A DNA stretch of 64,000 nucleotides from Aphrocallistes beatrix (taxonomy: Eukaryota > Porifera > Hexactinellida > Sceptrulophora > Aphrocallistidae). The position numbers were made by a program, and so were the translations under genes. The notes beneath the pieces were generated by a model that did not search any database, was not told the origin of the DNA, and worked only from the letters and a program-made list of their open reading frames with translations. Where the stretch lies: the NCBI GenBank assembly GCA_963281255.1, contig OY725500.1:930001-994000 (forward strand), given 5' to 3'. Each line of letters begins with the position of its first letter. Positions within the stretch are counted from its first letter, which is position 1. This document shows, piece by piece, positions 22,857 through 64,000 of the stretch.

Positions 22857-23197
22857 CAGTCAGGGTCGCTTATTGTGAACCACCAGGGGACCAAAATCTG
22901 TTCATAATAGAGATACAGTCGACTCCGCTTAATAGGGTCACATCGGTCAGAGGACATTTTGCCCCGATTAAGTGGAGAGCCCTATTAACCGAAAATATTT
23001 TGTATTGGCTTTCATCTATGAGAGCTATTCAGGTCCTACCAAAAGTGGCTCGATTAAACAGTGGCCCTATTAAGCGGAGTCGACTGTACTTCATATTAAA
23101 CGAACTTGATTCAATACAAATCCTATCTAAAAAATGAAATTGGGACCAGGAGGTTAGTTCATAATAAACGAATGTTCATATTAAGCGACCCTGACTG
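22857..23197. mobile_element. MITE, family CAGTCAGGGTCGCTTA, carrying a nested MITE
   Basis: Inverted termini CAGTCAGGGTCGCTTA and TAAGCGACCCTGACTG with TA flanks. The interior is split by a second element at 22916-23086. A partial relative (right half only) is at ~28768-28853. Confidence 0.85.
22916..23086. mobile_element. MITE, family CAGTCGACTCCGCTTAATAGGG, nested
   Basis: Complete palindromic element with TA on both sides (ATA|CAGTCGACTCC...AGTCGACTG|TA), inserted in the element above. Sister copies: 30235-30424, 44293-44485 and 63511-63663. Confidence 0.88.
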
Positions 23198-30094: not shown

Positions 30095-30234
30095 ATTAAT
30101 ACCACAAATTCATTTTATATTCAAACTTGTATGCCTATATTACTCCAATTATCGAGGTAGCACTTAGTTTGGTCGGTTACGCACAGGATTATTAAGGATT
30201 TTCTCATTGATGATATTACGTATGCAGTCATATA

Positions 30235-30424
30235 CAGTCGACTCCGCTTAATAGGGTCACATCGGTCAGAGGACATTTTGTCCCGATTAAGCGGAGGACC
30301 CTATTAACCGAAAATATTTTGTATTGGCTTCTATGTGTGAGAGCTATTCCGGTCCTGCCAAAAGTGGCCTGATTAAGCAGTTGACCCAATTAAACAGTTA
30401 CCATATTTTAAGCGGAGTCGACTG
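30235..30424. mobile_element. MITE, family CAGTCGACTCCGCTTAATAGGG
   Basis: Full palindromic copy, TA|CAGTCGACTCC to GGAGTCGACTG|TA, between the LisH and RIPOR genes. Confidence 0.88.
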
Positions 30425-30706: not shown

Positions 30707-33700
30707 TTATTCTGGACAGATTATATGAATGGCTTGCTTCGCTTCTAGCCTCACAGCTGGGAGGTCCATATCTCGAACAAAAGTCAGTTGATTCGTTGCT
30801 TGTGTGTACTAGAAAGTGGATGTAATTGACAATATGGAATTAGACATGCTACGATACGATATGTTAGAATAATGTAGTCTAGTAGATGTAATGTTAAGTT
30901 TGTAAACTGACCTTTATCTTAGCTAGAGCCCTGCAAGCTCCTTGTCTCCTAGCCTGGTCACTGTGTTCCAGGACAGATATAAAGTAGCTCCCCACCTAAT
31001 ATGGAGATGGATTGTTAATACTATGGGAGAGTACAGACAATTGTATTGTATAGTACAGCCATTTCTAAGTATTTTCAAATAAAAAAATTAAAAACGCGAA
31101 AAAGTGTGTTCATGCCAACTATCCCCTTTACATGAAATTTCTCCATTATGTCCCGATTTTTTTAAATTCTATGTATAATACTTTTTTATTGAGTCCCGCC
31201 ATGTCCTGCGAAATTCAACGCTGCGTCCGGCTTTTATCATGGCTCAAGTTGGCATGTATAAAAGTGACCCATGTGAATTTATTTGTAACACAACAATGTC
31301 TTAATATATTATCTACAATTCTAATCATGAACACACCTCTTCCAGCATCTTGGAATCCCTGGTGATATTCTTGAGGTAGTTTTCTAAGAGAGTATACATT
31401 ATAAGCTTATTACTTATTAGCTTTTGATGGCCGCACGTACTGAACTGCCGTGTAGAAACCTATCCGGATTTAAAGAGGCATTGCTAGCATGGCGTAAGCT
31501 TGATGACGTCATAATCTACCGGCTGAACACGTCACTGCCCGTGAGAGCTCTCAAAGAGAACGAACTCGATCGGACGAGTCAGTGTAAAGGATTACTGAAC
31601 GAATTCGAAGCTATGCATGTAGCAAGAAAAACCGCGATATCTTCCTGCTTAAAGGAGAACGAGAAAATTGTACAAGAATTGGCTCAGCAGAAGTCAGCTG
31701 GGAACGTTAAAGCGGATTTAGAGTTAAAGAAAGAAATGGTTAAGTTAAGATTGATTCAAGCTGAGTTGGGTGTGGAAGATGTAATCAAAAACAGAACGAT
31801 GAAAGTTTACCATGAAAGATGCTGGACCTACTACCAGCCAGCTTCTACATAGCCACTGTTCCGGGATAGAAGATGTAAGGTTACATTAGCAGTCGATTTA
31901 ATAATTATTGATTATTATGTATACGATATTTATACGATGAAATGAAATTTAGAATTTTATACGGAGGTCTGTTCTAACCTGCTATCTGGCATGACTCGTT
32001 GGGTTTGAGTAGCATCTCTGGGACAGCTCTGAGTATCCCTGTGTTGAATCCCATCCCAGCCATGCGTTTGAGCTAGAGTGGATAATGTTGAGATTCAAAA
32101 CTGTATTTTGATCAGAAAATATATAGAATTTTGCTCTGAATTCTGGAATTTGTATTAATTATTATTGAAATTCCACATTCTGATCAAAATATACATTCTC
32201 GATTCAAGCACTACACTACCATGGGCATTAAGTAAACTGAATCCATGCGATAGAGAAGTATTATTATTAAGGAAACCAGCTCTCTCTAAAAAAGTCACAA
32301 ACTTTAAGGAGATTTTGTGCTAGCTCCTTTCCCCCCTCAGAGTATTTATTGACACCTTTGTTAAAAGAGAAAAAATATCTTAATACCGACGAAACGTGCA
32401 TTCCTGAGGTTATTACTTACCGTTACGTTGACGACGTATCTCTCTTCTGAAGTCAGTCCGCCGTATAAGCTCACTAAGCAATGCATTCTGTCAACAAAAT
32501 GCCACTAAGGCTGTTATCTTATATTATAAGACAGCAGTGAGTTATGTAGAGTATTGATGTTATATTGCAATCGTACTCGAGAGTCTGAATAAACAGGGGG
32601 GTAGAACGGAGGTGAAAGAAAACCCAAAGATTAATAAGAAGGAGGTCCGTTTATTCGTCCCCAGAGTATGTATATACGTATAGTCAACCTTTTTTCTTAC
32701 TATTTCTTTACAGGTTCAAACAGTAAGAAAAACCCCGATAAGTACTATTGTTAATAAATTAAGTAGTAAAGTATTATATTCAGCTCACAATCCTCTGCCA
32801 CTTCTGAAACGTATTCTTCTAGCCCCGAACTGTAAGAAAATACATAAATCAATTCCTCAAGTATATTCCCTAATAATTCAAATTACATGATCTTCGTCTT
32901 GAAGTGGTCGTAGAACTGGAAGATAGTCAGGTACTGTGCCGCCGGCTGTTCTCCATCATCGAACGTTGTAGTGATTATCTCATTCGAGATGGTAGGAAAC
33001 ACTAGAGCGGAAAGCTTGTGCATAAAACAATATCTTAAGAAATGTATAAGATACATTTTGGTGGGGACATCCCGATTTTTTTTCACGGATGTCCCGTTTT
33101 TAAATGAAATTTCTCCATTCTGTCGCGCTTTATTTCATGATACGTAGTATTTTTCTATTGCGTTTCGCCATGTCCCGCGCAATTCCACGCTGCATCCCGC
33201 TTTTATCATGGCTCAAGTTTGCATGTATGCAATCTCCCATTGAAATAAAATGCTACACAATACTAATGTGCGTATTGAATATGGCGGTAGATGGATTATA
33301 ACAGACAGCTGAAAGAAGCGGACAGAATTCTCCACCAAATTAACAGTACACACCATAACATCCTCTCCATCGGCGGAGACGTGCTGGGTAGGTATGAGCA
33401 GCTGTGTGAGGAGAGGGTGCAGCGAGCAGTGAGAGAAGTCACAGACACCCTGGCGAGAGAACAATCTGAGTTGAGGGAGAGAGTTGTGCAAGAGACCGTG
33501 GAGGAAGGAATTAGACAGAAAGAGGAAGCGATCAGGGAGGCGTGGAGAGAAAGGGGGCTAGCTCTTGAGGCTAGCGAGAGGGAAGTAAGGGACGAGATGG
33601 AGGAAAAGGCGGACAGGATGGTTAGTGAGGAGAGAGAGAAAGGAGAACAGAGGTTCGGTTCTTACCAAATAATATATTTCATTACTAATCCGAATAAGTA

Positions 33701-36700
33701 TTATTTTCTCCATTTTAACGGGTGTAATTTAGAATGCAAGAAGCATTGGAGAGATCTAAAGAGATATGGAGAGAGGAATTGCTGGTGAGAGTGGAGGAGG
33801 TTAGACTGGAAGAGAAAACTATTGCGAATGAGAGGCTAGTTAGACTGAGAGAGGAAATGGAAGATGAAATGGATAGTAGGATATCAGAAATACAGAAAGA
33901 AGATGAAAATATTCTCAACACCAGTCTACAGGATTTAGAAGATGGTCATAAAATCAGATTGGGACAGGTACATAGAGAGGATAAAGAACAAGGGGATATG
34001 GAGATCAATGAAATCATCCGAGAACACAACTCCAAACTCAGTCAGAAGGAAATCGAGTTGAAGTTAACATTCGCCAATATTCGCACGCTAGAGGAACAGT
34101 TGAAGGAAAGAGATGGGAAGATTAACGAATTGGAAGCCAAGTACGCCGATTCTAGGATTGAATTCAGTCATTTCGTAGACACGATCAGCGGTCTAGGAGG
34201 AGGCTACACCGTCACCAAAGACATTTTATAGATAGGAACGATCTGATACTAATTCTGACACAAATCACTTCCATTCACTACTGTAATTTTCAAATAAATC
34301 ATTCGATTCGATTATACAATATGTACGTAGTTACTGATATGATATAGAAGCTGTAATTTGTTGTTGTGTACTCACGAAATGGATGTATTCGAATTCTCAC
34401 AATATTGTGAAGCAAACAAGGCAGATTTTAAAGGTTTTACACCTGTGTGAAGTGCTCTCTTCACTGACGTAGAGGTCTTAAATAGTCAAAGATTTAAAAT
34501 TATGTGAGTAGAGTAGCAACCTGAGTTGATACGATACGTAGGTATTTCAAATATTCGGAATCGTCACAATATTAATGAATAGAGATAAACTGTTTTTGGT
34601 TAAACTGCTCTGAGACAAAAGAATAATTGGATTGAGGAGCCTATCAGCGGAAAGTGAATGGATTAGGACTATTTATCTGATATACGGTGGCAGTTCGCCC
34701 GATACTAAAAGACATTTGCTCGAAAATTGCTTTTCAGTGGTCGACGAAGTTATCATTATAAGCTTGAGTGGGAATGGTACTTTTCTAGTAGTAATTCGGT
34801 AATAGGCGAAACTTTTTTTGTGTACAAACTACGTATACTCTATAACGCTAAATATTAACACTAGCCATCACACCAGCTGAGATCAAATGGCAGAGAGTAA
34901 CGGGAATGCGAAGGACGATGACGTCATAAAACTGTTTGTTGGACAGATCCCGAGACATTACGAGAAGGAGGATATCGAGGACATTATGTCTGAGTTCGGA
35001 GAGATCTACGAGATCAGTGTGATCCGTGACAAGATAACGAACGAGAACAAAGGCTGTGCATTCGTGACCTACTGCTCTCGGACTGGATCCAACACGGCAC
35101 AGGGGGAACTGCATGAGAAGAGGACACTCCCTGGAATGTCACACCCCATGCAGGTAGGTGTAGATAGGTAGATCGGATCTAGGAGGTTCGTAATGCGGTA
35201 TTTACATAGTGGGAATGTCATTGGGAGCAGGGGTGTCGGAAACAAACTCTTAGGGGGGGGGGCAACATTCAAACTTATTAATATAAGGATTATATCAAAA
35301 TTGCTGCCTATACTACACTCCAACTACATTGATCTGCGAACAAGATTGACAAAGTCATAACTAAACATAATTTCGTTTTTGGTACTGCAACAAAATAAAT
35401 GTAAGATCACATATTCCAGAAAAACTGGGGGGGGGCAAGTCCCCCCAGACCCCCCAATTCCTACGCCCCTGATGGGGAGAATGGGTTCGTGCGGTATTAG
35501 AGGTTTACCTGTATGCCGAAGGAAACAGCTATGTCATTGTGCTGCATTTTTCCGTCTTAAATTCACAATGGACAGCAGTTGTTTCGGTTATCTGACCTAA
35601 CGAAAGTGGTTTCATAGTAAGTGGTGACATTGAATGGAACATCTTACTGACTGATTGTTTACAGGTGAAACCAGCTAACAGTGAGGGCACACCTGAGGAA
35701 TGTAAGCTGTTCATCGGTATGATCAGCAAGCTAACGACAGAAGAGGACCTAAAGAATTTGTTCTCTCCTTTCGGGATTATCGAGAACATCACGGTGCTCA
35801 GGTATCAAGATGGTCAGAGCAAAGGCTGTGCTTTCTTAAAGTTCAGGAATAAATCAATGGCTCAGAAATCCATTAAAAGCCTCCACCACTCCCAGACCAT
35901 GCCGGGATGTACACAGCCTATCGTGGTGAAGGTAGCAGACACGGAGAGAGATAAAGCTGTGAAGAAGATGCAGCACCAGTTTAATCAGGCGCTACACGTC
36001 CTGGGGTCTATGGGTCCTACGCACGGCACCATCAGCCATATGCCCCCTGCACTCACCTCCATGTCCAACCCGCTAGGACAGCTCAATATGCTAGGAAATG
36101 GTGAGTCGATAGGATAGATACGGAATAGGACTCATTGAGGGATGATATGCCTATACATGTAGTATATTCCTTTTTATAAGTATAGCATATGATCAGTACA
36201 AATGTCCCCTGTATCCAACAAGTGTCACTATTTTATTGATACTTTTCGTCAATAATATACGGCCACTCTGTCACCTGTACACAGGGGGGTCACAGGAATT
36301 TTCCAAACTGGCGCGAAGCGGGGCCAAAGAAAAAAATCCGGGAGCCTTACTATTATTTTGGCTTAGGTAGTCGGATGAAATCCGGGACCGCAGAATCAAA
36401 CTCGGGGTAAATGCCCCGGATGCCCTCCCCCCTGGGACCACCCTGCCTGTACATAACGGCCACTTAAAAACAGTCCCGTCATCAACTTTCCATTACAATT
36501 AACCTCTACATATCGCCACCTGTACATAAGGCCATTCTCCCTGAGGTAGCCGTTATATACAGGTTCCACCGTAGCGTAATTATGCCGGTTGGATTATCTC
36601 CGCTCCGTGTAGAGTACCGGCTGGGCGCGCTGGTGTACCACCAGCTGCTCCAGCAGCAGATCCAGAACTTCCAGGGGATCGGGAGTCTCATCGCCAACCA

Positions 36701-39700
36701 GCACAGTCCACACGGCGGCGCCGCTCCAGCACACCACGCACACTCCCACTCGCACCACCAGCACTCGTCCCCCCTGGGGGCAGGCCCCCACAGCCTGCTA
36801 CCGGCGCACCAGGGCGAGGCGTCCCCCGCGGCCATCTCTCCCAGACAGTCGTACCCGCTCTCGCTTCACGACGGGATTCACGGGGCGATGGGACAGCAGG
36901 ATAAAATCCCCATCTACGGTGCTGCGCCGCAGTCCGGGATGAACTTACTCGTGACACCGCCCAACCCCTCCCCCCAGCGGTCAGGTCCGGAGGGGGCGAA
37001 CCTCTTCATCTACCACCTACCCCCCGAGTTCTCAGACTCAGATCTCTTCTCCACGTTTATTCCTTTTGGAAATATCATTTCCGCCAAAGTTTTCATCGAT
37101 AAACAAACAAGTCTATCTAAGTGTTTCGGTTAGTTCATAGTTGTATTATTTCTATACTAACCTAGAGGTAGCACGAATTGCACAAATTCACATCACTTTT
37201 AGTCCCACACTGTGCCCGATGGCACCGTATGTTCACCATTTAAAGCGCCATGTGTCTGACTCGCTATCAATTCCTGTTATAATCAGTGGCGTTCCTCCCT
37301 TGTTACGCCAATGGTTCTAATAAGGTTGGATATGAACTCTAATTCTAACATTTCTCAGGTTTTGTGAGCTACGATAATCCGATGTCTGCCGGGTCTGCTA
37401 TTCAAGCGATGAATGGATTTCAGATTGGCAATAAAAGATTAAAAGTACAATTGAAAAAAGCGAAAGCTTCTTCCAAGCCTTATTGACAGCCTTTCAGCCA
37501 GACAGATCGTTTATATTTTCAAAATCCAGATCTATTTTCAAGTGTCTTCTTGTTCTAGCTGTTAGGTATTGTGCGAGTAACAGTATTGTGCGTGTAGGTA
37601 CAGTTAGTCTGTCAGTCGTGTGTTAATGGTAGTTTAGTAGTCAAGTTTAGTAAAAAGTATTCCCTTGTAGTGAGTGCGGTGTAACCCTGTATCCACTGTA
37701 GTCTCAGTTCAGTTCAGTGATATATGGAGTGGTAGTCTCGTGCTGTATTACTCATTATTTATAAGATGTATTATTTATCTCGAGTGGCAACTTTAAAGGG
37801 TTCAATTGCGTTTATTATTAATATTACCGGGGCTCTAATGGGACTTAGCATTTCTAACTTTTTTCTGGCGACTAATGTTTATCCATTTGCATACATACAA
37901 CTTGAGCCATAATGATAAAGCGGGACGCGATATGAAATTTCGCGGGACATGTCGGGACGCAATAGAAAAGTGTTATACGTACATGTTATCCAAAAAAGCG
38001 GGACATAATGGAGAAATTTCATTTAAAACTCTCTGTTAGCATGTATGCATGGTTGTAGTGCGTGGTAAAATTGTTTAACTGGACCAGGGATTCATTCATT
38101 TTACTGTAAAACTATTTAGCCATCTATTCATTAATAATTTAATAATTTAACTCACAGAGGTGTGCCACGTCCGGGTAGTTCTTCCACACATCTCCGAACA
38201 TCCGGTCTAGCGCAAGGGAGAAGTTGTCTAGCGGCGCCACGAAATCCTACATTAAATGAAATTATTAAATAAGAATGTAGTTTATATTCTATTTTGTTTG
38301 TGTAAATAATATAAGTTATGGAAGAAGAGAAATTGAATCAATTCGACAGACTGGATCTGAGTCATAACGCTGGGTATTTTGAGACGAATGACAGTGACAT
38401 AGAGCTGTCAGACGAGGGGGAGATGGGGAGTGAGTTAGGGGAGGAAGGGAGTGCACTGAGGGAAGCGGCTAAAGAGTTGAAAGGTAAATCAGACCAATTT
38501 GAACTAGACATGGACAAGGAATTGGATGGTATGATCGGAGATATGGGCTACCCCGTGTCTCTACTGAAGCATTTGCAAGGTGTCGAGACAGATGGGAGCG
38601 AATCGGGAGCTGGTAAGTTTAAGAAGGATTCACACCTTGGTTTCTATGACAACGTCTACTTCGACTCAGATGAAGATGACACGACAGAGGAAGGTGAGAA
38701 AAAACGCGTTTTGAGTAACGATGAACTGTTATACGATCCTATGGCTGATGAACAAGACGAACAATGGGTCAACTCGCAAAGATTGGCTTACAGGAATCTA
38801 AAAAGTTCTGACACAAATGATGAGAATAATCCGAGTAAAAAGGAGGAGATGCCTCAATCTGACGCAATCCTGAGTTGTCCTAGTTGCATGGTATCCTTGT
38901 GCATTGACTGTCAGCAGCATGAGAGCTATAAGAACCAATTCCGTGCCATGTTCGTTATGAACTGCCGAGTAGAGACAAGTGAGACTCTGAAATATAAGAA
39001 GAAGAAGAAGAAGAGAGACAGGAAGGGAGTGCCGGATAAGACTATGGTGGAATATGACGTGTACAATCCTGTGAAGTGTGCCGGCTGTGATACAGAAGTT
39101 GGGGTATACGATTCGGATGAAGTTTTCCACTTTTACAATGTACTACCTAGCGAGCCTTGAAAACCAACATTGATTTGTCTCTAATATATTATTATATGGT
39201 GTTTGTCTGTCAGATTCTATGTTAATTGTGCTTGGACAGGAATGCGAATGCCCCCCTCTTCTTCCTCCATTTTCATATACTCCTTCGAGATTTTAATATT
39301 TAATTATTTCAAGGCTAAATTACGGCGTAGAAGTATACATTGAAAAATTGCAAAAAAAATCCGACTTTCGAACGGGAATGAAGTATAAATTTGTAGTTTA
39401 CCACCAAAACCTCACCCAGCACCCTTTGGGAGCTGACCTAAAAAGACCTAAAATTCCCGCTTAGCACAATAACTTTGAATTTAAATTCTTTTTCAACCTC
39501 GAATCCTTGGTGGCAGCATAACCCAAAAGGTATTCATTATCAACAAATGCCCTCTGCTCCAAAGACCGTCGTCTCTTCCATAAAATGACTGGTTTCATTG
39601 TTGAAAATGCCTTTTAAGGTAGCTATGAAAGCCTTTACTGTTGAGTTTTCACACTTTTTTGCTACTAACATCAAGTTTTGACTCTTGCAACAAACTTAGA

Positions 39701-42700
39701 ACACTATAATATTTAATACTAAATATTAAAACTCACGTTTTCTCCACAACAAGCTTGCCATAGAGCCCACAGCTCCCTACTGTTTCCTAGCTGAGGCACA
39801 ACTAAAGTGTAAAAATACGCGATAAATGTACATGTTTATAACTCTACTTCGTCCCACTCTAACTCACGCTGTAATGACTGGATCTGCTCATTGTCTGCGT
39901 GCATTAAAATAATGTCAATGATCTCAATTTGCCTCTCCAACAAGTTTAGACTCTTCTTCGTCTAAAAACGATAAGAGCGGTTATTTCATAAGAATATCAG
40001 ATACTTTGTGCAAATGGAAATTAGGGTACCGTACCTTCCATTGTAGAGGACCTGGTGGCTTTAGGTTCTAGAGAAATGGAACGGCGATTTATGAATTTAT
40101 TTGTATTGAGTTATTCATTCGTGATTGGTACAGTTTATTGCCTCACCTGGAGTAGATTTTCACAGTAGATGAGGAGTGTAGTTAGTAACTAAACAAATGC
40201 AATCGAGTTAATTTGTGCAGAAAGAAAGGTACAATGTTTGCATAGTTTGAACTGAACACAGCTGTGTTACAAATACAATCGTAAATCGATAAGAGTCATT
40301 TTCTGGTACGAATTACTGCTCGGTTCTATTAAACCGCTTAATTACTGAAAATATTTTCCCTAAAATAGCCAGCAGTATTTGCTAAAATGAGAATGTTCAA
40401 AAGCGCCAAGAGATTTCAAATCTCAAAACCCCAAAGTTGAAGATGTTAATTTCATATAGCTCAGCGCTGTCCAACAGGCGGCCCGCGGCCTTGCTTTGTG
40501 CGGCCCACGTTGCGTCCAAAATGCCTCTATCCATACCCATCCCGAGTGCACGCCCCTGTATTGCGGCCCGCCACTAAATGGTATGAAGCAGTTGCGGCCC
40601 GAAGTAAATATAGTTGGACAGCCCTGATATAGCTTATACAGCCATACCTCAGTGGCATAAGAAGAAGAATGGATGGGAATTGCAGATAATTAAATCTATC
40701 CTAACTCCCAACTTACGAAATCTATGTTATTTTTTCCTGTCGTTAGTATCGCTCCCTCTTCAATGCTCGTATCATCCGCAGGCAGACTGTCTCCCTTAGA
40801 GGATCGGGACGGGACGCGTTCTGTCTGTAACAGCTTATTAGTCTGGCTAGCAGTGACGTCATCAACTACAGTTTTATATCTTAAATCCATTGCTTGTTGT
40901 TGCTATGTACAGTGGAACCTCGTTAATACGAACTCCAGGAACGGTCAAATTTGTCCGTATTATCCAGAATTCGTATTAATAATCCTCCGTTGCCCCTGGA
41001 ATGTGTCGCGTCATTTCCGGTTTAAGCCATTTTGGGCGGGGAAGCCATACAAATTCGGGCTATTTACTATAAATAGATAAAACCCCAAGCCATCCGATAT
41101 AATTATTAACCAGAGTGATTCACATGTATTTTCTTCCGTAGAGGATAAAATATCTGTTCGTTTTAATGGAATATAAATTTGTCGGGTAACGAAATTGAAT
41201 TTTATACACACATGCTAAAAAAGTGCGCAAGAGTTTAGCCACTAAAGTAGAGTCTAGCTAGCGAATCAAAAAGACTCGAGTCAGAAATATAGCTAACGTA
41301 GAGTTCAAGTGCAAATAGTAGAGTTGGGCAATTTTATGAATAATACTTGTATTTAATTAACGGGAACAACTTGGGGGTCAGTTCTATTTATAGTAATGAC
41401 CCCACATTTATATGGCTTCCCCGCCCAAAACAGCTTAAACCGGAAATGAGTAAGCATAATAAAGTTTTTCCCGGGTTAAGTCAATCTGCTATGCCATCAC
41501 TATTGTCTGGGCTAATTTTATTGGATATAATTGATTGCATAACTCACCAGTCTCGAGGGCTAGTGCAGACATGTCCACCATTTCCTGCAGCATGAAATTA
41601 AGCTCCTCCTCATCCGACGAGTAATCCTCGGGCTGGAGAGATCCCTCACCGGATGTAGGGTCTACCATACAATCCCTTAATCCCGTCAGGTTTATCCCAC
41701 TATCTGAAGACCGCCTTAACTCCAGTTTTTCTGAAGTGTTAATTTCGTTTTGTATTTGTGGTTCTGATTCGTCGTTTAGAAAGTCGAATGCGTCCATCGC
41801 ATCAACTTCTGAGTCTGTGAGTGAGACCTTCCTTTCCTGCTTTGCGCTTTTGTTCTTAAGAAGAAGAATTTTTCATTAATTAACGTGAATTGATTGTTAC
41901 TTTTAAAATCTAAAATATATACATACGTACAGTGGAATTCGCTTACAACTCGAGTTTTGCTCATAAAATGGTTGCTAATACGCGAAATTGCTATAATAAG
42001 GGAACATAATTAACACAAAATCTTCACTTGGGACCTGAAGACTGGTTGCTAATAGAGCAATATTGCTAATAAGCAAATCCCACTGTATTGCATTTTCGAT
42101 TCATCTACATTAGTTAACAATCTGAAAACTCCGGGTTTTTTAAGACAAATATTTTATTTGAGTTCAGGTGTAAACAAATGCGTATTTTCTCAGAATTTCG
42201 CAATAATTTGGCTGGAAAAAGTGGTCAATGGTGTTTTGTAATCATCGTAACACTTTGACATTCTCCAGGCATTAAATGTGCTATATCTAAGTCTATTAGA
42301 GAAAGTTCAGTCATTTCCTACTCTCGCTTGTATAACATGAGTGGACAGACATGACGTATTGTTTTATAGTATCCATGATAGAATAACTTACTCGTGTTAG
42401 CATTGAGATCTTGTTCAGTCGCCCTTCCAACTCACTCAATACTTTCGCATTGTAGAATTCTGTTGAACAAACAACTCAATAACATTATGACTTTATGAGA
42501 AATTATAAACGATTTTTAATAGATCCAACTAAAAGGAATTAAATTGGGAATATCCATGTAGACATAGGAATGCTAAAGTTCACATTCTTTTTTAAGTAAT
42601 ATTACTTGGCTGGATACAAATTAATGAAATCTCACCTTTTTTCTGCTCAATACAGGACCAGAGGTTATCGTATGCCTCCAGCAAGTGACAGACTGAGTCC

Positions 42701-45700
42701 AGAGAGTCGCTGTCTCTGTGATAGTCCCTGTCGAGCTGTAGGTTATTCATCAGCTCCTTACGAGCTGACTCTGACTCCACCAGGATGGGTTTGTACCCCA
42801 CTCGCCCTTGATAAACATATCATAACGTATAACGTATAACGCAGTGGTTCCAAATCTGGGGTCCATTGACCCCTTAGTAGTCCACAGAAGATATAGGGGG
42901 TCCACAGGATTCAGAATATTACTGTTAATAGGAGGGGTCAACAGCCAAAAAAGGTTTAAAACCACTGGTATAACGCATAACGTATTGCTATCTTAAAATA
43001 CTTGTAAGAACGAAATGTGTATTTGAATACAATAGTCTCTTCAAGGTCCAATCAGTATTATCCAAACTATTACTATCTATCTAGTTCGTGCCTCCCATTA
43101 GCCTGATACAATACTTGTACTTCCTGTGTGCCCACTGATGCAGGTTATTGGCTCCAGATAACAATGTTCTAAATAATCACTAGATATGTATAATGTTCAA
43201 TACTCAATTTTCAGAATAATTCATATCGAATGCAGATCGCTTTAGTTCACATATGCGCTTTTTTCTTGGAGATTTGCTGGAAAAAACTTTTCTATGAAAA
43301 AAAACTGTCAAATCCGAATTACCAGGTTTGTACTGAGAGGGAGATCTGTGCAGCACTGAACAGACATTCCTAAGAGGACTGAATGAGCTGAAACTGTCCG
43401 AGTTAGGCATGGCTCCGATGTCACTACTGCTGCTGCTACTGCTCTTCAAGTCCTCTCGACTCCTAGTTTGGGAGTCCGGCATGGAGAATTTCCCTTCTGA
43501 CATCATCAGATAGTCCGAATCAGTGATTTGTTCGCTTAGTGTAGACTGAGGTCGAGCTCTACTCTGAACTGACTATAGAGTATAGCGTCTATTAATACCG
43601 CCGTAGCTGTACTTACCATCAAGCCATCTTAATCCTCCGAGCAGACTTAGAAGTTCTTTAGATTGTGGTTAGGATATTATCAGAAGAGTAATAATCTATG
43701 ATTACTCTCTGAAACGGTAGTAAATAGACAAATTCTTCTTAATTCTAGGCTGGATATGAGCTACTGAGTACCACTGACATATGTTGCAGTGTATTATAAA
43801 CAATAGATGCATTATTTTGATATTTGAAATCCATTAAATACGTATTTATCTACGATTTTGTGTTAATAACCATCGATATTTGTATAAAACACCTCAACAC
43901 AACCCAGACACTCCATTCTTAGAATTCGAACACAAAAAATGCAACCTTATTCGCCTCTAAGTCTTGAATCGACGTTTACAATCTTCTATCTTTCAATAAG
44001 ATTGAGAAACCTCGTTAAAAGCAATCGTATCGAAATAATATATTCTAGCATTACAAATTTATTATCGTTACCGGGGACAACTTGGGTCAATTTATATTTA
44101 TAGTACTGAACCCAAAGTAATTTATATGGCTTAAACCAGAAATTAGTAAGCAGAAGTTTTTCCCGGTTAATTTCACATTAAAATGGTGATATATTTCCGA
44201 TCATTGGTGCAGAGCTGTTCGGTTTAGCGAGGATGTAATGTATCAACAAATCAAACATGTTTAGGTGTGAATTTATATATACATAGTATATACAGTCGAC
44301 TCTGCTTAATAGGGTCACATCGGTCAGAGGACATCTTGCCCCGATTTTGATGAAGCGGAGAACCCTATTAACCGAAAATATTTTGTATTAGCTTCTATGT
44401 GTGAGAGCTATTCCGGTACTGCCAAAAGTGACCCGATTAAGCGGTTGACCGATTAAACAGTGAACCTATTAAGCGGAGTCGACTGTATTATAAACAATGC
44501 GTAATGATTTAGTATAATCTCACAATATCGGTTGGGATGACGACAGCTGGGGCACGACGTGCCCGCTGAATGCTGTGTTGCCTGCAGAGTGAGTGATAAA
44601 CTCAGACATTCTAATACTCTCCTGCCATTCACGTAGTTAGCCTACCTTGCTCGTTTTTTCTTATTCTCAAGTTTACTTGATCCAATGATGACGTCATGCA
44701 TTTCAAAATCCAAGATTTCCCCGTAATCAGGGTCAGTATAATGAAAACTAGGATTGCACTTGTCAATACACAATACAATACATTTAATCTAAATCTAATA
44801 CTCGAATAGTAACCAGCCCCCGAATACTCGTCCCCCCCAAAGAGGGTTCTAAAAGTATTTTGCTCCTTATTAGAAGATAATTTTACAGCAAATTCTTCCC
44901 TCTTAGGCTCCTGCCATTTATCTATATACCGTATATACTCGAATAGTTGCCGGCCCTCGGAATTCGCCTCCTCTGAGAAATCAGCCCCCCCCCCAAAGAG
45001 GGTGTAAATTCTTTTTCACCCCTTAGAATAAAGTTTTGTTACAAATTCTTCCCTCCTATCATTTATGCATTCATTCGTGCGGTTATATTAATCGAAAAGT
45101 CCCATATCCGAAATAAAAAATATTTTTTCAAAGCAAAAAATTAATATCCACCCGGATACTATTCGAGGATATACGGTATATTAATGTACTCACCGCCATC
45201 TCGCTTCAAAGTTAACGCTACACACATCATTAGATGCGCTTTTTAACACCAGCACGACATTCTGTGGATGAAGCGAGATCAAATCGTATGCGCTGAATTT
45301 CGCAGATCCCAGCAATAGGTTTCCTAAGAATCTTCGTATGTGCACCGCCTAGAATATAATGACGTCATAACGAGTAATTCTGAGTAAGATCAGTGATTGG
45401 GAATCATTGAGTCGGCAAAATTGAAAATTGCATTCAAAAGCATTTTAAAATTTCTAGTTAATGATACATTTTTAATTTAATAACAATCTTAATAATCTTT
45501 TTCATTAATATGATTACCATATATGTTCTATGCAATCTTCTTCTATGTTACGCATTTAATCATTCAATGAATTAAGATTGTGTGTGGGTTAGTTTACTGT
45601 TTTCTATCTACTAATCTTAATTTATAGATTATTGTCTATATATTCGTACTTATCATACAAACCCGAAAATCAGATTAATGTGAATAGAGAAGTGCTACTT

Positions 45701-48700
45701 TTCGCAGTAATCCAGTTATAATTGTGTTACATCCTTATACAAAAATCAAATGGGAATGAATTGCTTAAAACCCATTGCAGATTTTCAAAAATTAATGAGG
45801 CAAATGTATCTGAATCGCGTTCCAAGCCAACCTGTATATCCATCAGTGTGTTGTCCCCCAATATTGTCATCATCACCTAGCACAAAACTCTAAGTACTTG
45901 TACTCTAAGAAAAAAATACGATTCTTCGGAGAAATTATTCTCAGACATACGTGCGAATCTCTCCACTTTTGTTGTTTGTTTTTAATCGTTCCTTTTGTTT
46001 TCCATTTCTGTTCTGAGATATCAAAAGATACCTAAAAATGTTTAAACATGTTTTATATTTGTTTAATTCGCGGTTAAACTAATGTTAAACAAATATTATG
46101 TTTTACCTCATAAGTGTCATTATTCATTAACCGCGGAATATCCAGGAGTCCTAAAAATGATTTTAAAATACTATCCAATCTAAAATTAGAATATCTACAG
46201 ATAATGCACCTGCAAGATGTGTAAGAACACTCACTCAACTTTCAACTCGATTACTCATCCCTAGCCAAAGCTTCAACTTGTGCCACCTTGTGCCAGATGC
46301 CACTAGTCATCATCACTAAACAGTATAGTGTTAGTGGCACAAGATGGCATTCAAATCCTGAGTAATCGATTTGAAACTATCTACGAGTAATTCGAATGCG
46401 TAGAAACGAATTTAAAGCAAAATTTAGCAGTCTAGGAGCACCTTATTGGGAACAAGGTATTCAGTTAATTGATTCCTTGAATCCATTTTAGGTTTTCATG
46501 GCGGACGGAAGAGTGGGCATCCAAATAGGACATCTCCTATAACAGGAGCTGTACTAAATTTCCCATCTGTCTAACCCTACCTTTAAAAGTTATCTGTAGA
46601 TATCCCATAGAGTCGAACATTTCATCTTCGATGTCCAATAATTTCTAAAATAAGTCATACGGAGTGATAAAATTTATTACTCAAATGAAAAAGTACACAA
46701 ATATTCACCTCATTAATCTTCCTTAAATTATTTTTTAACACAGCTTTCGACTTCTTTTTCGCTTTCGTGTGAGGTTGTTCGCCGTAAGCACTATCTAGGT
46801 TGGAAGCTCCTAGATGTGGACATAATGTAAACGTAATTTGCTTGCAATTCAGAAATAAAAGAAAATTGAACTTTTTAACAAGAAATATTTCTAACAATCG
46901 AAGTTGTTTCAGTTAACATTTATCTTTTGCCCCACAACAAAAAATATTTTGCTCTTGTAATCAGCCAATAATTATCGAATATTTGTCCCAATATGGATTT
47001 AATTAGTTCTGGTAGACATATAACTAGGCTTGGTTGTAGGCAAGGATTCACAATAAGAAATGTTTCGTATTTGTCTTTGTGTCTCTTAACTCGACTGGCT
47101 TCTCCTATCAACTCATTTAGACAATCTTCAGTTATATAAATGTACTAATAGCGATTTGCATTTGTAGAATTGGAAATTCCAGTAATGATCAGAGCCATCA
47201 TGCTGCTGCTAGAACAGAGCTGAAATTCTACGAGTACATAGAACTACACTCTGACAGAACCAGTAATAATAATTAATTAATTTCAATAATCTAGGATTAT
47301 CAGAATCTTTGGGATAATAATTTCCGATGAAAGCAATGTCTAGAAAAACTTGACACATACCTGCATAGATTTTCAGCTGGCGTAGATAATCAATCCGTAG
47401 CATTTGAATCTAAAACAAGATTAAGTTCGTAAAACTGGGAAATGGGAGAGATAGGAATGGCTTGAAGCTAACCTGTTCTAGGTGTTGCTGTAGAAGACTG
47501 TGGAGACATTGGCAAATTATAAATATCCAATAGCAATTTGGTTATAAACAATATTTTATCTCATATAAAGTCTACTCACCACTTAAATGACATTATACAG
47601 AAACAGTATTCGATTTCTATCCAAAAACATTTCTATCCAAAAACAAGAGTTTCCAACCGCTTCGTATAAACAATGTTAATCACCAAAGTAATACATTTTG
47701 CATGTGCGCAATACTTAATGCAGAAACTAGCTCGAGACAGTACTTAATATGATTTACTTGAAGTCTCTGTCTAGGTTTATGCTTACTCTATAGAATCTCT
47801 TAATCCACTGCTATAGTGCTATCCTACTTGTTGTTCATTCAACGATCTAAGTGCAAAATAGCACGCATCACGATTGCACAAAGTTTTATCCACATCCTAA
47901 GTTACTGTGCAAGGTGTAACGAGTACAAAGATCTCTACCAAACTGAAAATGGGCGGGACCAGGTGTGAAGACAGTAAACTAATTAAATCAAAACATCTTC
48001 ATTAAGCAAGCACTCACCTCATACACACTCTGATCTAGAGGAGACAGTATACATGATCAAAGCAGTTCTGTGTTTTTAAACTCTTAACCTAACAAGGGAG
48101 TGGTAGCCTTTAGTAAGGTTTAATCTTGTTTAATGTAAGCATACTAAGTTTGAGTTAATTTTAATTCAATTTCCTTGTCCAATATACACACATAAGTCTG
48201 GATATACTGTATTTGAAAGAAAAAATACAATTAACGTTAAGAATAACCTCATTATTATCTTCTTCATTCAAAATTAGCTTCTCTTCTCCTAACTGCAATC
48301 CTTCTCTGAGGGAATAACAACTCATTACAAAAGATACTTCAAAGATATATAGGGTGAGTTCCATTCGAACAGGTGTTAAATTTATATTATTTATGTGTTA
48401 AATTTGTTCAAATTATCTAGAAAATGCAGATCTAAATATTTGGATTCTGTTGATATCTCTAAACACCTCATCCAGCATGATAGTGTTAATAACTAAAATG
48501 CTACAATTGAACCAAACTAAAAACCATTTATATTAACTAACAACAAAACATAACATATAATCATACTGCAATACGTTAGTCAATTCCAATGATTGAGTGT
48601 CCTAATACAATACTTACTTCAGTGCGTTTTCTACGATATCCACGTAGTGCCAAAATTTGACCTGGTTGGGCTGCTCCCTCTTAATCCTACTCGCTCTTAT

Positions 48701-49666
48701 TTGCTAAAAAATACAAACACACTGATACAATGGTGTAGTACGTGCATGCTGTGAGGTAGGATGGACTTACTTTGGGGTTTGAAATGGAAGATATTCTTCG
48801 CAATCTTGTGCTTTTCGGATTTCCTACACCTCCGGAATTTTGTCTATTTACCTAAAAAACATAAACAAGGAATAATTACATCTTATATGTATACATGTAT
48901 CTGTAATGAATTCATTGAGATTGCCAGACGCAGAAAACTGATTTTGAGACATCCCAGTTATTTATACGATAGAAGTGTGGAATTTCAATCGCTGGAGTAC
49001 ACGAATATTAACTTCATATGTTGGAACCATCACATTCAAAAAAGCGTACTCATCTTTAAATTATTGCCTCATACCTCATCATCTATCAATGATGGAAAAG
49101 ACTTGTTTGCAAAAGTTGTAAAAATATAAATTATATTATGAATATGAATCTTAAACTCGCCTCATTCAAATATTCTCTACATTATTATTCCATACAAAAT
49201 CGAACCCTACTCATTATTGAGAATAATGATATTGTCACATGTCAATTATAGTTTCGTATATGTATCCATGGTTCACTTAATATTATCAATAAAATACGCC
49301 TATTATTACTTTTATTATACTTGGTGGATTCGTCGCCCACAGGACGCCTGACTTGGGCATGGCGTTTTGCTGTATAGTGAAGCAAGTGAAGCGTCTTGTA
49401 TACAATAAATTAGTAGGTTTTTGTATTTCCATTTCAAGTTGTCAAGTATTTCTTGTCGTTTCATTTTCATGACGAACGAATAATTTTTAATTTTGTATGC
49501 ATAACGAACGTGTATGCATTTGATAGAGAATTCCTTCAGCAGGAATTCGTACAATAATCCATCTTGTTTATTCTCTATATTCAAATAAAATCTAAATTTA
49601 GTTGCATCAACTCACCGGGAGAACTTGGGATTTCCTTGAAGCAATTGGCGAACTTAAATTCTTCAT
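30707..49666 (-). CDS. RIPOR: RIPOR-family Rho-interacting protein, 30 coding exons
   Basis: Assembled by eye with GT..AG borders; all 30 exons join in one frame (2,700 bp, 899 aa). RIPOR proteins bind Rho GTPases and regulate polarity and adhesion. Exons 5'->3': 49666-49616, 48851-48771, 48703-48618, 48305-48248, 48034-48018, 47497-47473, 47409-47361, 46809-46709, 46644-46581, 46150-46107, 46031-45951, 45876-45832, 45348-45194, 44747-44646, 43645-43617, 43568-43323, 42806-42636, 42459-42392, 41854-41548, 40865-40717, 39961-39868, 39786-39737, 38246-38156, 33001-32887, 32829-32789, 32473-32421, 32072-31979, 31383-31337, 30995-30912, 30808-30707. Helical N-terminal region ~60-125; RIPOR core ~158-290 (signature QKWKTKGTI); Ser-rich linker ~320-645; C-terminal HEAT-like region ~690-899 ([11 protein letters not shown]). 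The ATG of exon 1 has an in-frame stop two codons upstream. Weakest junction: the acceptor at 32474. Confidence 0.88.
31108..31262 (+). repeat. Dispersed ~150-bp repeat, RIPOR intron copy 1
   Basis: Contains GAAATTTCTCCATTATGTCCCG, TCCCGCCATGTCC and TTTTATCATGGCTCAAGTT. Copies at 33098-33237 (same strand) and 37885-38030 (opposite strand). Confidence 0.75.
31424..31852 (+). CDS. MIX23: MIX23 (CCDC58), mitochondrial intermembrane-space protein
   Basis: Single-exon gene, 142 aa, close to the usual ~140 aa. MIX23 is a small intermembrane-space protein linked to mitochondrial protein import. Seen: a family-typical N-terminus ([11 protein letters not shown] in place of the human IDDRIVHELNT), the four conserved cysteines (near residues 10, 51, 69 and 133), the segment [15 protein letters not shown] and the end KVYHERCW. 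Nested on the opposite strand in intron 27 of RIPOR, with its ATG only 40 bp from RIPOR exon 28. Translation may begin at the second Met (31427), which has the better context. Confidence 0.93.
   Translation: MMAARTELPCRNLSGFKEALLAWRKLDDVIIYRLNTSLPVRALKENELDRTSQCKGLLNEFEAMHVARKTAISSCLKENEKIVQELAQQKSAGNVKADLELKKEMVKLRLIQAELGVEDVIKNRTMKVYHERCWTYYQPAST
33098..33237 (+). repeat. Dispersed ~150-bp repeat, RIPOR intron copy 2
   Basis: Same text as 31108-31262 with substitutions, ending at GGCTCAAGTTTGCATG, just upstream of the coiled-coil gene. Confidence 0.75.
33291..34231 (+). CDS. Long coiled-coil protein, possibly C6orf163-like
   Basis: Two exons, 33291-33652 and 33733-34231, joined in frame across a short intron (AG|GTTCGG donor, TTTAG acceptor), giving 286 aa. 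Almost the entire protein after residue 40 is charged heptad-type coiled coil rich in Glu and Arg. The N-terminal sequence [13 protein letters not shown] resembles the segment before the coiled coil of human C6orf163 as I recall it. The C-terminus is a short non-coiled tail with a Gly-rich turn (GLGGG). Nested on the opposite strand in intron 23 of RIPOR, in tandem with the CELF gene. Confidence 0.75.
34293..34298 (+). terminator. Poly(A) signal of the coiled-coil gene
   Basis: AATAAA 62 bp after the stop codon. Confidence 0.6.
34887..37486 (+). CDS. CELF: CELF/Bruno-like RNA-binding protein
   Basis: Four exons: 34887-35153, 35665-36100, 36613-37128 and 37359-37486, phases consistent, 448 aa. 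The family binds GU-rich RNA and controls splicing, translation and mRNA decay. RRM1 (~residues 14-95: [18 protein letters not shown]), RRM2 (~100-180: [17 protein letters not shown]), a divergent linker rich in Gln, His, Pro and Ser (~235-345), then RRM3 (~350-448: [11 protein letters not shown] split by intron 3, GFVSYDNP) and the family-typical end SKPY. Two RRMs, linker, third RRM is exactly CELF order. Exon 3 is strikingly GC-rich compared with its surroundings. Nested on the opposite strand in RIPOR intron 23. Confidence 0.95.
35228..35471. mobile_element. hAT-like MITE in CELF intron 1
   Basis: Ends CAGGGGTGT and ACGCCCCTG are inverted repeats. Flanks ATTGGGAG and ATGGGGAG look like an 8-bp target duplication with one mismatch. 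Two poly-G runs inside. Confidence 0.65.
37885..38030 (-). repeat. Dispersed ~150-bp repeat, RIPOR intron copy 3
   Basis: Reverse-strand copy of 31108-31262 (AACTTGAGCCATAATGATAAA at one end, GGAGAAATTTCAT at the other). Confidence 0.75.
38318..39160 (+). CDS. EAPP: EAPP, E2F-associated phosphoprotein
   Basis: Single-exon gene, 280 aa, close to the human length. EAPP is a nuclear phosphoprotein that modulates E2F-dependent transcription. Seen: an acidic N-terminal half ([15 protein letters not shown]), the [13 protein letters not shown] motif, and a C-terminal zinc-binding-like region with [29 protein letters not shown] and [19 protein letters not shown], the family signature. Cys pairs CxxC are all present. 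Nested on the opposite strand in intron 22 of RIPOR, 71 bp beyond RIPOR exon 23. Confidence 0.95.
   Translation: MEEEKLNQFDRLDLSHNAGYFETNDSDIELSDEGEMGSELGEEGSALREAAKELKGKSDQFELDMDKELDGMIGDMGYPVSLLKHLQGVETDGSESGAGKFKKDSHLGFYDNVYFDSDEDDTTEEGEKKRVLSNDELLYDPMADEQDEQWVNSQRLAYRNLKSSDTNDENNPSKKEEMPQSDAILSCPSCMVSLCIDCQQHESYKNQFRAMFVMNCRVETSETLKYKKKKKKRDRKGVPDKTMVEYDVYNPVKCAGCDTEVGVYDSDEVFHFYNVLPSEP
40462..40626. mobile_element. hAT MITE with perfect 8-bp target duplication
   Basis: 165 bp starting CAGCGCTGTCCAAC and ending GTTGGACAGCCCTG; ATATAGCT flanks it exactly on both sides. GC-rich interior with repeated GGCCCG. Lies in a RIPOR intron. Confidence 0.88.
41361..41475. mobile_element. TTAA-flanked MITE (CGGGAACAACTTGGGG family)
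   Basis: Ends CGGGAACAACTT and AAGTTTTTCCCGGG are imperfect inverted repeats with TTAA on both sides, the target used by piggyBac-type elements. Core GGCTTCCCCGCCCAAAA is shared with four other copies. Confidence 0.7.
41930..42085. mobile_element. MITE, family CAGTGGAATTCGCTTATTAGCAA
   Basis: TA|CAGTGGAATTCGCTTA to AATCCCACTG|TA; reverse-oriented sister of 13321-13482 and 58939-59111. In a RIPOR intron. Confidence 0.82.
42842..42967. mobile_element. hAT MITE with perfect 8-bp target duplication
   Basis: 126 bp, CAGTGGTTCCAAATCTGGGG to TTTAAAACCACTG, flanked on both sides by GTATAACG. A longer, older relative is at 50771-50922. Confidence 0.9.
44071..44166. mobile_element. MITE of the CGGGAACAACTTGGGG family
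   Basis: Starts CCGGGGACAACTTGGG and ends AAGTTTTTCCCGG before TTAA; shortened interior compared with 41361-41475. Confidence 0.6.
44293..44485. mobile_element. MITE, family CAGTCGACTCCGCTTAATAGGG
   Basis: Full-length palindromic copy with TA flanks in a RIPOR intron. Confidence 0.85.
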
Positions 49667-56079: not shown

Positions 56080-62491
<6,412 letters not shown>

Positions 62492-64000
62492 CTACAGGGG
62501 AGAACGTTTGTAAGTTTGCTCATTTTAAGGCTTTTAACCGTAGAATGCCCAGTGGGGACACAGTGTCCCCGATATCGCGGATGTCTCCCAGCCATTTTCT
62601 ATGCAACTGAAGCCATATAAATGCTGGGCATTCTACTGTTGAAAGCAGGGCTATTCTTAGACTTAATTGTGCTAATTAGCTAATGGAGCTACAGATACGC
62701 TGATTGGATCATACGACCCAGTTTTATTTTTCACTCGAGACCACATAATATTCCTGGGAATACAGTCCAGGAATAAAACTTTTGGAATGTGTAGGGAGAG
62801 ATAATATGGACTACGTGTCTTGTGATCTTCTAAGTGTATCTTTGAATTAATAAAAAAATTATAGAAATTATAAATTGGAATTAAAAGAAAGATGTTAAGC
62901 AAACTCTGCGAGTCCTTGGAATCTTGAATATATTGCGCAATGCGTTTCTAATATCTAGCAGGTAGTTTCCAGGAGGTATTTGTGGTATATGCACGTACAC
63001 CCGTTTGAATTAATCAATAAATATTATAGAAATTACACAATTGAAATACCGCAGTAATGGATATAGTGATGATGCTAGGGGCAAGGAATTTTGAGCCAAA
63101 TTATCACTACAGTAGAAGCCGTGTACAGGGAACCACTGCCTAACAGCGACACGCCCTGACAGGTGGGAGTCTAGATGAACTCTTTTATTGGGGAAAAGAA
63201 TCCAGTTTGAATCAAACCCGTATGGTAGGCTATGGATAGAGGTAATACTAGAAGATGTTATTAGGCACATTACCGGTACCCTGCAATACAATTAAGAACT
63301 ACACCCTTAGCACTACATACAGCAGTGCACTACGTTACGATACTGAGAGTCAATAATCCATCGTTACTGGTACAAACTCTGTTGTAGTTTGAACTCGTTC
63401 ACGCCCTAAACTTAAATTCCCGACTTAGCTCATGGATTGAAAAACTAAACTTATTATCTTGATGAGAATCCTATTTAATACACATTGAAAATTGTGAACT
63501 AAAACAATTACAGTTGACTCCGCTTAATAGGGTTACATCAGTCAGGGGACATTTTGCCTCGATTAAGCGGAGAACCCTATTAACCGAAAATATTTTGTAT
63601 TAGCTTCTATGTGTGAAAACTATTCCGGTCCTGCAAAAAGTGGTCGGATTAAGCGGAGTCGAAAATACGCAAGTAATTTTATTTTGTCATATACAGTCAA
63701 CTCCGCTTAATTGGGACAAGTCTCCAGGAACGGAATGTGGTTTCCCAGCATAGAAGCTAATACTAAATGTCATCGGTTAATTAGGAACTCTGCTTAATCG
63801 GGGTAAAATATCCGGGACCAAAGTGTCCCGATTAAGCGGAGTCACCTGTATGTAGGTGAAAAAATAATTTGAGTTTTCTAGAACTCCATAAATAATTTTG
63901 ATTTTTATGTTATAATACTTGTATGTAGTTAATATTTGCTTTTAATAAGTTAAAAATTTAATGAAACTTTTAACAGTTTCCAGGACAGTTCTACCATTTT
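62492..64000. other. DHX16 upstream intron, no exon recognised
   Basis: Palindromic MITE at ~62525-62641 (GTAGAATGCCCAG ... CTGGGCATTCTAC, with an inner GGGGACACAGTGTCCCC). Two further MITEs sit 30 bp apart: 63511-63663 (CAGTTGACTCCGCTTAATAGGG family, right end truncated) and 63694-63848 (CAGTCAACTCCGCTTAATTGGG, complete). The exon preceding 62491 must lie further right. Confidence 0.65.

Follow-up and report, generated by a model that had tools for sequence, protein, structure and literature searches.

Four antisense genes within three introns of a predicted RIPOR/FAM65 gene in Aphrocallistes beatrix

Results

Structure of the host gene

The locus described here lies in a 64-kb stretch of Aphrocallistes beatrix contig OY725500.1 (C14:930001-994000, hereafter the window), part of a 4.3 Mb contig (C14) of an assembly that totals 100.5 Mb over 28 contigs. 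A minus-strand gene of the RIPOR/FAM65 type, for a predicted regulator of cell shape (the host; coding span 30707..49666, ~19 kb), carries in its introns four plus-strand genes, predicted to encode MIX23, a coiled-coil protein, a CELF/Bruno RNA-binding protein, and EAPP (Table 1). The host model was drawn manually, following splice sites, phase, and an open frame, with a working human RIPOR1 sequence partly in mind, and was tested afterwards. This working sequence leaves out the long middle part of the human protein, and is a lead rather than a database record in every comparison below.

The host coding sequence consists of 30 exons in one open frame (868 amino acids [aa]), with GT-AG boundaries at all 29 introns and consistent phases throughout. 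The initial annotation had likewise joined 30 minus-strand exons in one frame, though into an 899-aa product; the rebuilt protein is 31 aa shorter, so some exon edges differ between the two models, while exon count and intron numbering agree. The introns have a median length of 341 bp; the shortest measures 57 bp, and intron 23, at 5154 bp, is by far the longest. Intron 19, which is gene-free, is also long (1496 bp). Two candidate exons were omitted, one near 43.66 kb that was out of phase and an open reading frame (ORF) near 40.8 kb without a counterpart in the working RIPOR1 sequence.

Coding potential on the host strand was explored with an exon-chaining program trained on codon statistics of ten ORF segments in the window, of which seven belong to nested genes and none to the host. 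The four nested ORFs were shuffled before the run, and 20 dinucleotide shuffles were scored at each intron penalty. Chain scores were 105.7, 79.6, and 61.3 at penalties of 5, 6, and 7, compared to shuffle maxima of 13.7, 5.6, and 2.8. At penalty 5 the chain had 28 exons; across the three settings it recovered 16, 15, and 7 of the 30 hand-modelled exons exactly and shared at least one edge with 21, 20, and 10 of them. The host strand is thus coding far beyond chance, though chaining does not confirm every exon. A separate automatic chain strayed into nested-gene and repeat sequence and did not yield the final host model.

The nested genes

The coding regions of all four nested genes lie on the plus strand, each inside a single host intron, and together they span 7.7 kb. 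The definition of a nested intronic gene in PMC8527503 asks for this position of the coding region and also for a transcript that stays entirely within the intron. Their coordinates bear out the initial annotation, which had placed EAPP in intron 22, the coiled-coil and CELF genes in intron 23, and MIX23 in intron 27, all antisense to the host and within 8 kb. MIX23 matches PF09774 over nearly the entire profile (positions 1–153 of 156; E = 9.1e-13, 49.3 bits, cut-off 25), and EAPP carries the complete C-terminal domain PF10238 (positions 1–134 of 134; E = 2.7e-43, 147.8 bits, cut-off 25). The CELF protein has three RRM_1 stretches arranged as two N-terminal RRMs, a linker, and a C-terminal RRM; among PDB entries it comes closest to CELF2 (E = 2e-54), the best matches being CELF2 and CELF1 over RRM1–2 and CELF2 over RRM3. 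The coiled-coil protein matched no Pfam family, and the intron of its gene has a weak donor (GTTCGG).

The nested genes are closely packed against the host exons. The MIX23 start codon lies 43 bp from host exon 28 and the EAPP start codon 71 bp from host exon 23, and at such distances the promoters, and perhaps the 5′ untranslated regions (UTRs), of both genes probably overlap host exons in antisense. Downstream of MIX23, the sole AATAAA or ATTAAA between the stop codon and position 32600 occurs at 32588, past host exons 27 and 26, and weaker variants of the poly(A) signal follow the stop codon, the first at 31941. The MIX23 and EAPP transcripts may overlap the host.

Identity of the host

The RIPOR-like assignment of the initial annotation is supported by a match of host aa 96–268 to PF15903 (PL48, Filopodia upregulated, FAM65; E = 4.1e-23, 82.3 bits, cut-off 31.4). 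Near the C-terminus, aa 811–862 resemble HEAT_2 below the cut-off (E = 0.0046, 17.6 bits, cut-off 27.7); the C-terminus of RIPOR1 carries HEAT repeats (PMC8741841). The PDB held no RIPOR relative detectable by sequence, the two matches returned (E = 0.61 and 1.1) being at chance level. In searches of the host protein against its own genome, all 19 matches fell at the host locus, and going by these matches we take the host to be a single-copy gene.

Over aa 29–862 the joined protein aligns collinearly with the working human RIPOR1 sequence. Exons 1–22 and exons 24–30, which flank EAPP, CELF, and the coiled-coil gene on either side, scored 173 (shuffle maximum, 66) and 145 (shuffle maximum, 57), respectively, with none of 300 shuffles reaching either score. 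The parts on either side of MIX23, exons 24–27 and exons 28–30, scored 89 and 68 (shuffle maxima, 49 and 45). When the exons from 20 to 30 were shuffled singly in their context, the intact score was reached in 9, 1, 13, 2, 0, 0, 0, 10, 42, 0, and 0 of 300 shuffles, respectively. The host resembles RIPOR1/FAM65A in its PL48 region and in the order of its parts and, going by the sub-threshold match and the alignment with the working sequence, may share a HEAT-like C-terminus, but it is shorter and lacks the long low-complexity middle of the human protein. The RHO-binding motif has an invariant Gly-Ala (Gly155 and Ala156 in RIPOR2; PMC8741841). In the alignment with the working sequence the host reads ...KIYAGASN... 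against ...RLRDGAYN... of RIPOR1, which would keep the Gly-Ala and replace Arg-Leu by Lys-Ile.

Several observations weigh against a single RIPOR gene of exactly this structure. Because the working RIPOR1 sequence helped to choose some host acceptors, the alignment and exon-shuffle tests are partly circular, and the RIPOR identity of the C-terminal half, which has no Pfam match above cut-off, depends on this working sequence. Taken alone, exons 21–22 and exon 23 did not stand out from their shuffles (scores reached by 100 and 148 of 300, respectively), and exon 28 was weak in context, with 42 of 300 shuffles matching or beating it. Even at its best setting the chaining program missed 14 of the 30 exact exons; the PL48 match does not extend to exons 1–4, and for exons 5, 6, 20, and 14–15 the edges were drawn from splice signals, phase, and in part the working human sequence. 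An own-genome search for PL48 found nothing, as did the same search of control genomes; a gene divided among small exons can escape such a search, and the negative result does not argue against its presence. Finally, an in-frame ATG at 33021–33023, just above exon 24, would permit a separate short gene or isoform. With these points taken into account, the locus very probably comprises a single 30-exon RIPOR/FAM65 host with four independent plus-strand antisense genes nested in three of its introns.

Alternative explanations

A ~145-bp dispersed repeat, found at 10 places in 264 kb, has three copies in and around the nest. Copies B (plus strand) and C (minus strand) separate the coiled-coil and CELF genes from host exons 24 and 23, as would be seen if these two genes had entered intron 23 as one block by way of the inverted, bracketing repeats, and in Hormiphora 176 nested genes are flanked on both sides by transposable elements (PMC8527503). 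The presence of 3 of the 10 local copies in a 7.2-kb region has a chance of 0.002 if the region is fixed beforehand. A cluster of any 3 of the 10 copies within 6.8 kb anywhere in the 264 kb has a chance of 0.18, however, so no claim is made that the repeats carried the block in. A first look across the genome also gave 1087 candidate copies of the repeat, of which 40 were scored, and at 71% mean column identity, in an alignment that includes flanks, the three local copies seem old and may not trace back to a single event. Entry as a single repeat-borne block is thus considered unlikely.

Even less probable is a pair of minus-strand genes, a long one ending to the right of 38.1 kb and a short one formed by exons 24–30 from the ATG at 33023, which would leave only MIX23 nested. 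The position of this ATG, 20–22 bp above the exon 24 acceptor, and the exceptional length of intron 23 would fit such a division. Conversely, exons 20–23 and 24–30 follow one another along the single working RIPOR1 sequence, phase is kept through exon 23, and the splice sites facing each other across the intron are an exon 23 donor reading GTGAGT and a pyrimidine-rich exon 24 acceptor. The phase-0 donor of exon 22 is incompatible with the phase-1 acceptor of exon 24 unless exon 23 or a similar exon intervenes. An error in exon 23 itself would leave EAPP, CELF, and the coiled-coil gene between exons 22 and 24.

Own-genome searches placed MIX23 and EAPP at one site each and the coiled-coil protein at this locus only, while CELF scored 384.7 bits at the locus, where it had four matches, and at most 61.4 bits in 22 matches elsewhere, the latter as expected of other RRM proteins; with no comparable copies found in these searches, the nested genes are most likely the working copies. 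That they are processed retrocopies or pseudogenes of real genes elsewhere is extremely improbable, given these searches, the open frames of all four genes, the introns of the CELF and coiled-coil genes, and the long intron-free ORFs that also occur outside the nest in the window (a PP2C, 371 aa, and a leprecan-like protein, 613 aa). An origin of the intronless MIX23 and EAPP by retro-insertion was not adopted, as such long intron-free ORFs are not confined to the nest.

A second antisense nest and other features

About 10 kb from the RIPOR nest, an antisense tetraspanin gene lies among the last three exons of a helicase of the DHX16/PRP2 type (closest PDB entry DHX16, E = 7.9e-174), bringing the window to five antisense nested genes in two hosts. 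Since these 64 kb already hold two such hosts, nesting seems habitual in this compact genome and not a special device of the RIPOR locus.

Table 1 Features of the RIPOR nest and of the neighbouring nest (window positions)
Feature	Position	Strand	Remarks
Host exon 1	49616..49666	-	start codon; weakly supported
Host exon 2	48771..48851	-	
Host exon 3	48618..48703	-	
Host exon 4	48248..48305	-	
Host exon 5	48018..48034	-	17 nt
Host exon 6	47473..47497	-	25 nt
Host exon 7	47361..47409	-	
Host exon 8	46709..46809	-	
Host exon 9	46581..46644	-	
Host exon 10	46107..46150	-	
Host exon 11	45951..46031	-	
Host exon 12	45832..45876	-	
Host exon 13	45194..45348	-	
Host exon 14	44646..44747	-	less certain
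Host exon 15	44524..44581	-	less certain
Host exon 16	43323..43563	-	
Host exon 17	42636..42806	-	
Host exon 18	42392..42459	-	
Host exon 19	41548..41854	-	
Host exon 20	40035..40051	-	17-nt microexon
Host exon 21	39868..39961	-	
Host exon 22	39737..39801	-	
Host intron 22	38247..39736	-	1490 bp; contains EAPP
Host exon 23	38156..38246	-	91 nt; island between CELF and EAPP
Host intron 23	33002..38155	-	5154 bp; contains coiled-coil and CELF genes
Host exon 24	32887..33001	-	
Host exon 25	32789..32829	-	
Host exon 26	32421..32473	-	
Host exon 27	31979..32072	-	
Host intron 27	31384..31978	-	595 bp; 72% antisense MIX23 coding sequence
Host exon 28	31337..31383	-	
Host exon 29	30912..30995	-	
Host exon 30	30707..30808	-	stop codon
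MIX23	31427..31852	+	intron 27; one uninterrupted ORF, 141 aa; PF09774
Coiled-coil protein	33291..34231	+	intron 23; exons 33291-33652, 33733-34231; 286 aa
CELF/Bruno RNA-binding protein	34887..37486	+	intron 23; four exons (34887-35153, 35665-36100, 36613-37128, 37359-37486), 448 aa, three RRMs
EAPP	38318..39160	+	intron 22; one uninterrupted ORF, 280 aa; PF10238
~145-bp dispersed repeat, copy A	31128..31260	+	intron 28; approximate edges
~145-bp dispersed repeat, copy B	33084..33232	+	left edge of coiled-coil/CELF block
~145-bp dispersed repeat, copy C	37886..38028	-	right edge of CELF block; inverted relative to B; approximate edges
DHX16/PRP2-type helicase, last three exons	56080..62491	-	62126-62491, 57412-57822, 56080-56457
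Tetraspanin	59248..60117	+	PF00335, E=1.1e-25; uninterrupted ORF, 289 aa; in DHX16-gene intron 57823-62125 (4.3 kb)

A further repeat of ~160 bp occurs at 22913–23067, 30232–30386, 44288–44457, and 63508–63662, with one copy in host intron 15 and one just past the host stop codon; it looks like a miniature inverted-repeat transposable element, as the copy near 30.3 kb has inverted-copy ends (TCGACTCCGCTTAA...). At the left end of the window, an inverted repeat (1–2311 and 5739–8049; 2311-nt arms with 97% complementarity, separated by 3.4 kb) holds in both arms parts of long ORFs that start alike (C14:929277-932255 and C14:935795-938773). A third ORF of this type occurs at C14:904795, and the set looks like a locally amplified gene. 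The stretch 6665–8770 matches the Ferritin-like family PF12902. The left flank also contains a 1770-codon ORF (C14:908052-913361) that opens with a monotonous MLKICSKYAQ-type repeat and is probably a translated tandem repeat, and four tandem ORFs (C14:879391-888322) with near-identical starts (VMASAESGSEE...) that likely reflect a recent local duplication.

No Rfam families and no tRNA genes were found in the window. The core of the Hormiphora spliced leader gave one genome site with 3 mismatches, where the reversed control gave two, and the short motif at its end occurred in the window at chance level. Searches for innexin and Wnt gave no match in the genome or in control genomes, though the same type of search missed the RIPOR gene that is present.

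Discussion

The arrangement preferred here, one RIPOR/FAM65 host with four antisense guests, would operate through minus-strand transcription of a single gene spliced from 30 exons, alongside four plus-strand genes in three of its introns, each presumably with its own promoter and 3′ end and thus transcribed separately. It would be workable because the splice and poly(A) signals of the nested genes are present in the host pre-mRNA only as their complement; the nested genes would thus be removed as ordinary intron, and their antisense position would spare the host mis-splicing. The nest may have originated by insertion of genes or gene blocks into pre-existing introns, the usual route in the literature, though this is a guess.

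Comparable nests have been described. Human NF1 contains four opposite-strand nested genes, three of them coding (OMG, EVI2A, and EVI2B) and one the pseudogene AK4P1, and MOB2 hosts thirteen (PMC4394429). The RIPOR locus shares with NF1 a large multi-exon host and four intronic genes, all on the opposite strand, but the host is 19 kb long compared to 283 kb for NF1, and its four nested genes are all coding within their 7.7 kb. The ctenophore Hormiphora californensis has 2357 nested genes in 1654 hosts, and its Figure 4A shows a four-in-one host (PMC8527503). As here, this is a small animal genome (110 Mb) with four nested genes in one host; unlike here, two of the four are doubly nested, whereas in the RIPOR nest none is doubly nested and all are antisense. 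The Hormiphora nest is documented by transcript reads and the RIPOR nest by genomic sequence. At the level of the genome rather than the locus, the glass sponge Aphrocallistes vastus is similarly compact and rich in nested genes (2432 nested genes, with 19578 genes in 80 Mb and 12409 transcripts of a single exon; PMC10282587).

Nested genes make up 4.3–8.7% of the protein-coding genes of seven vertebrates, and opposite-strand arrangements account for ~74–78% of the simple nested pairs of human and mouse (PMC8467205). At these human and mouse rates, four of four antisense genes have a chance of ~0.30–0.37. The initial annotation regarded four genes in one host as unusual, a view that does not hold against NF1, MOB2, Hormiphora, the neighbouring DHX16 nest, and this chance of an all-antisense set. 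Its concern that nesting misleads automatic annotation was right and already in print, the authors of the A. vastus genome warning that annotation programs miss nested genes (PMC10282587). No mention of this nest was found in the open literature searched for RIPOR and nested genes. The RIPOR nest is a good new example of an already known kind of nested gene.

At 100.5 Mb, this genome is below vertebrate size. The presence of a RIPOR gene in it means that the statement of one review that RIPORs are vertebrate-only cannot hold, provided that nothing is missing from the assembly and that the PL48 match is accepted as it stands. A search of the literature on FAM65/RIPOR in invertebrates found nothing on point. 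Invertebrate entries named RIPOR or FAM65 exist in public databases, which makes a non-vertebrate RIPOR a correction and not a discovery.

A more speculative reading, which we consider doubtful, is that the locus forms an interlocked transcription unit in which host and nested mRNAs overlap and could regulate each other through polymerase collision or double-stranded RNA. Unless transcription of MIX23 and EAPP starts inside the 43 and 71 bp that separate their start codons from host exons 28 and 23, their promoters and 5′ UTRs would reach these exons, or lie past them, in antisense. If true, the interlocking would tie a RHO regulator to single-copy genes unable to leave easily. Overall, the RIPOR nest is a dense, clean case of gene nesting in a compact animal genome and would serve well to test gene finders that do not allow genes to overlap; an annotation made under that rule would lose MIX23, EAPP, and CELF, the only copies found.
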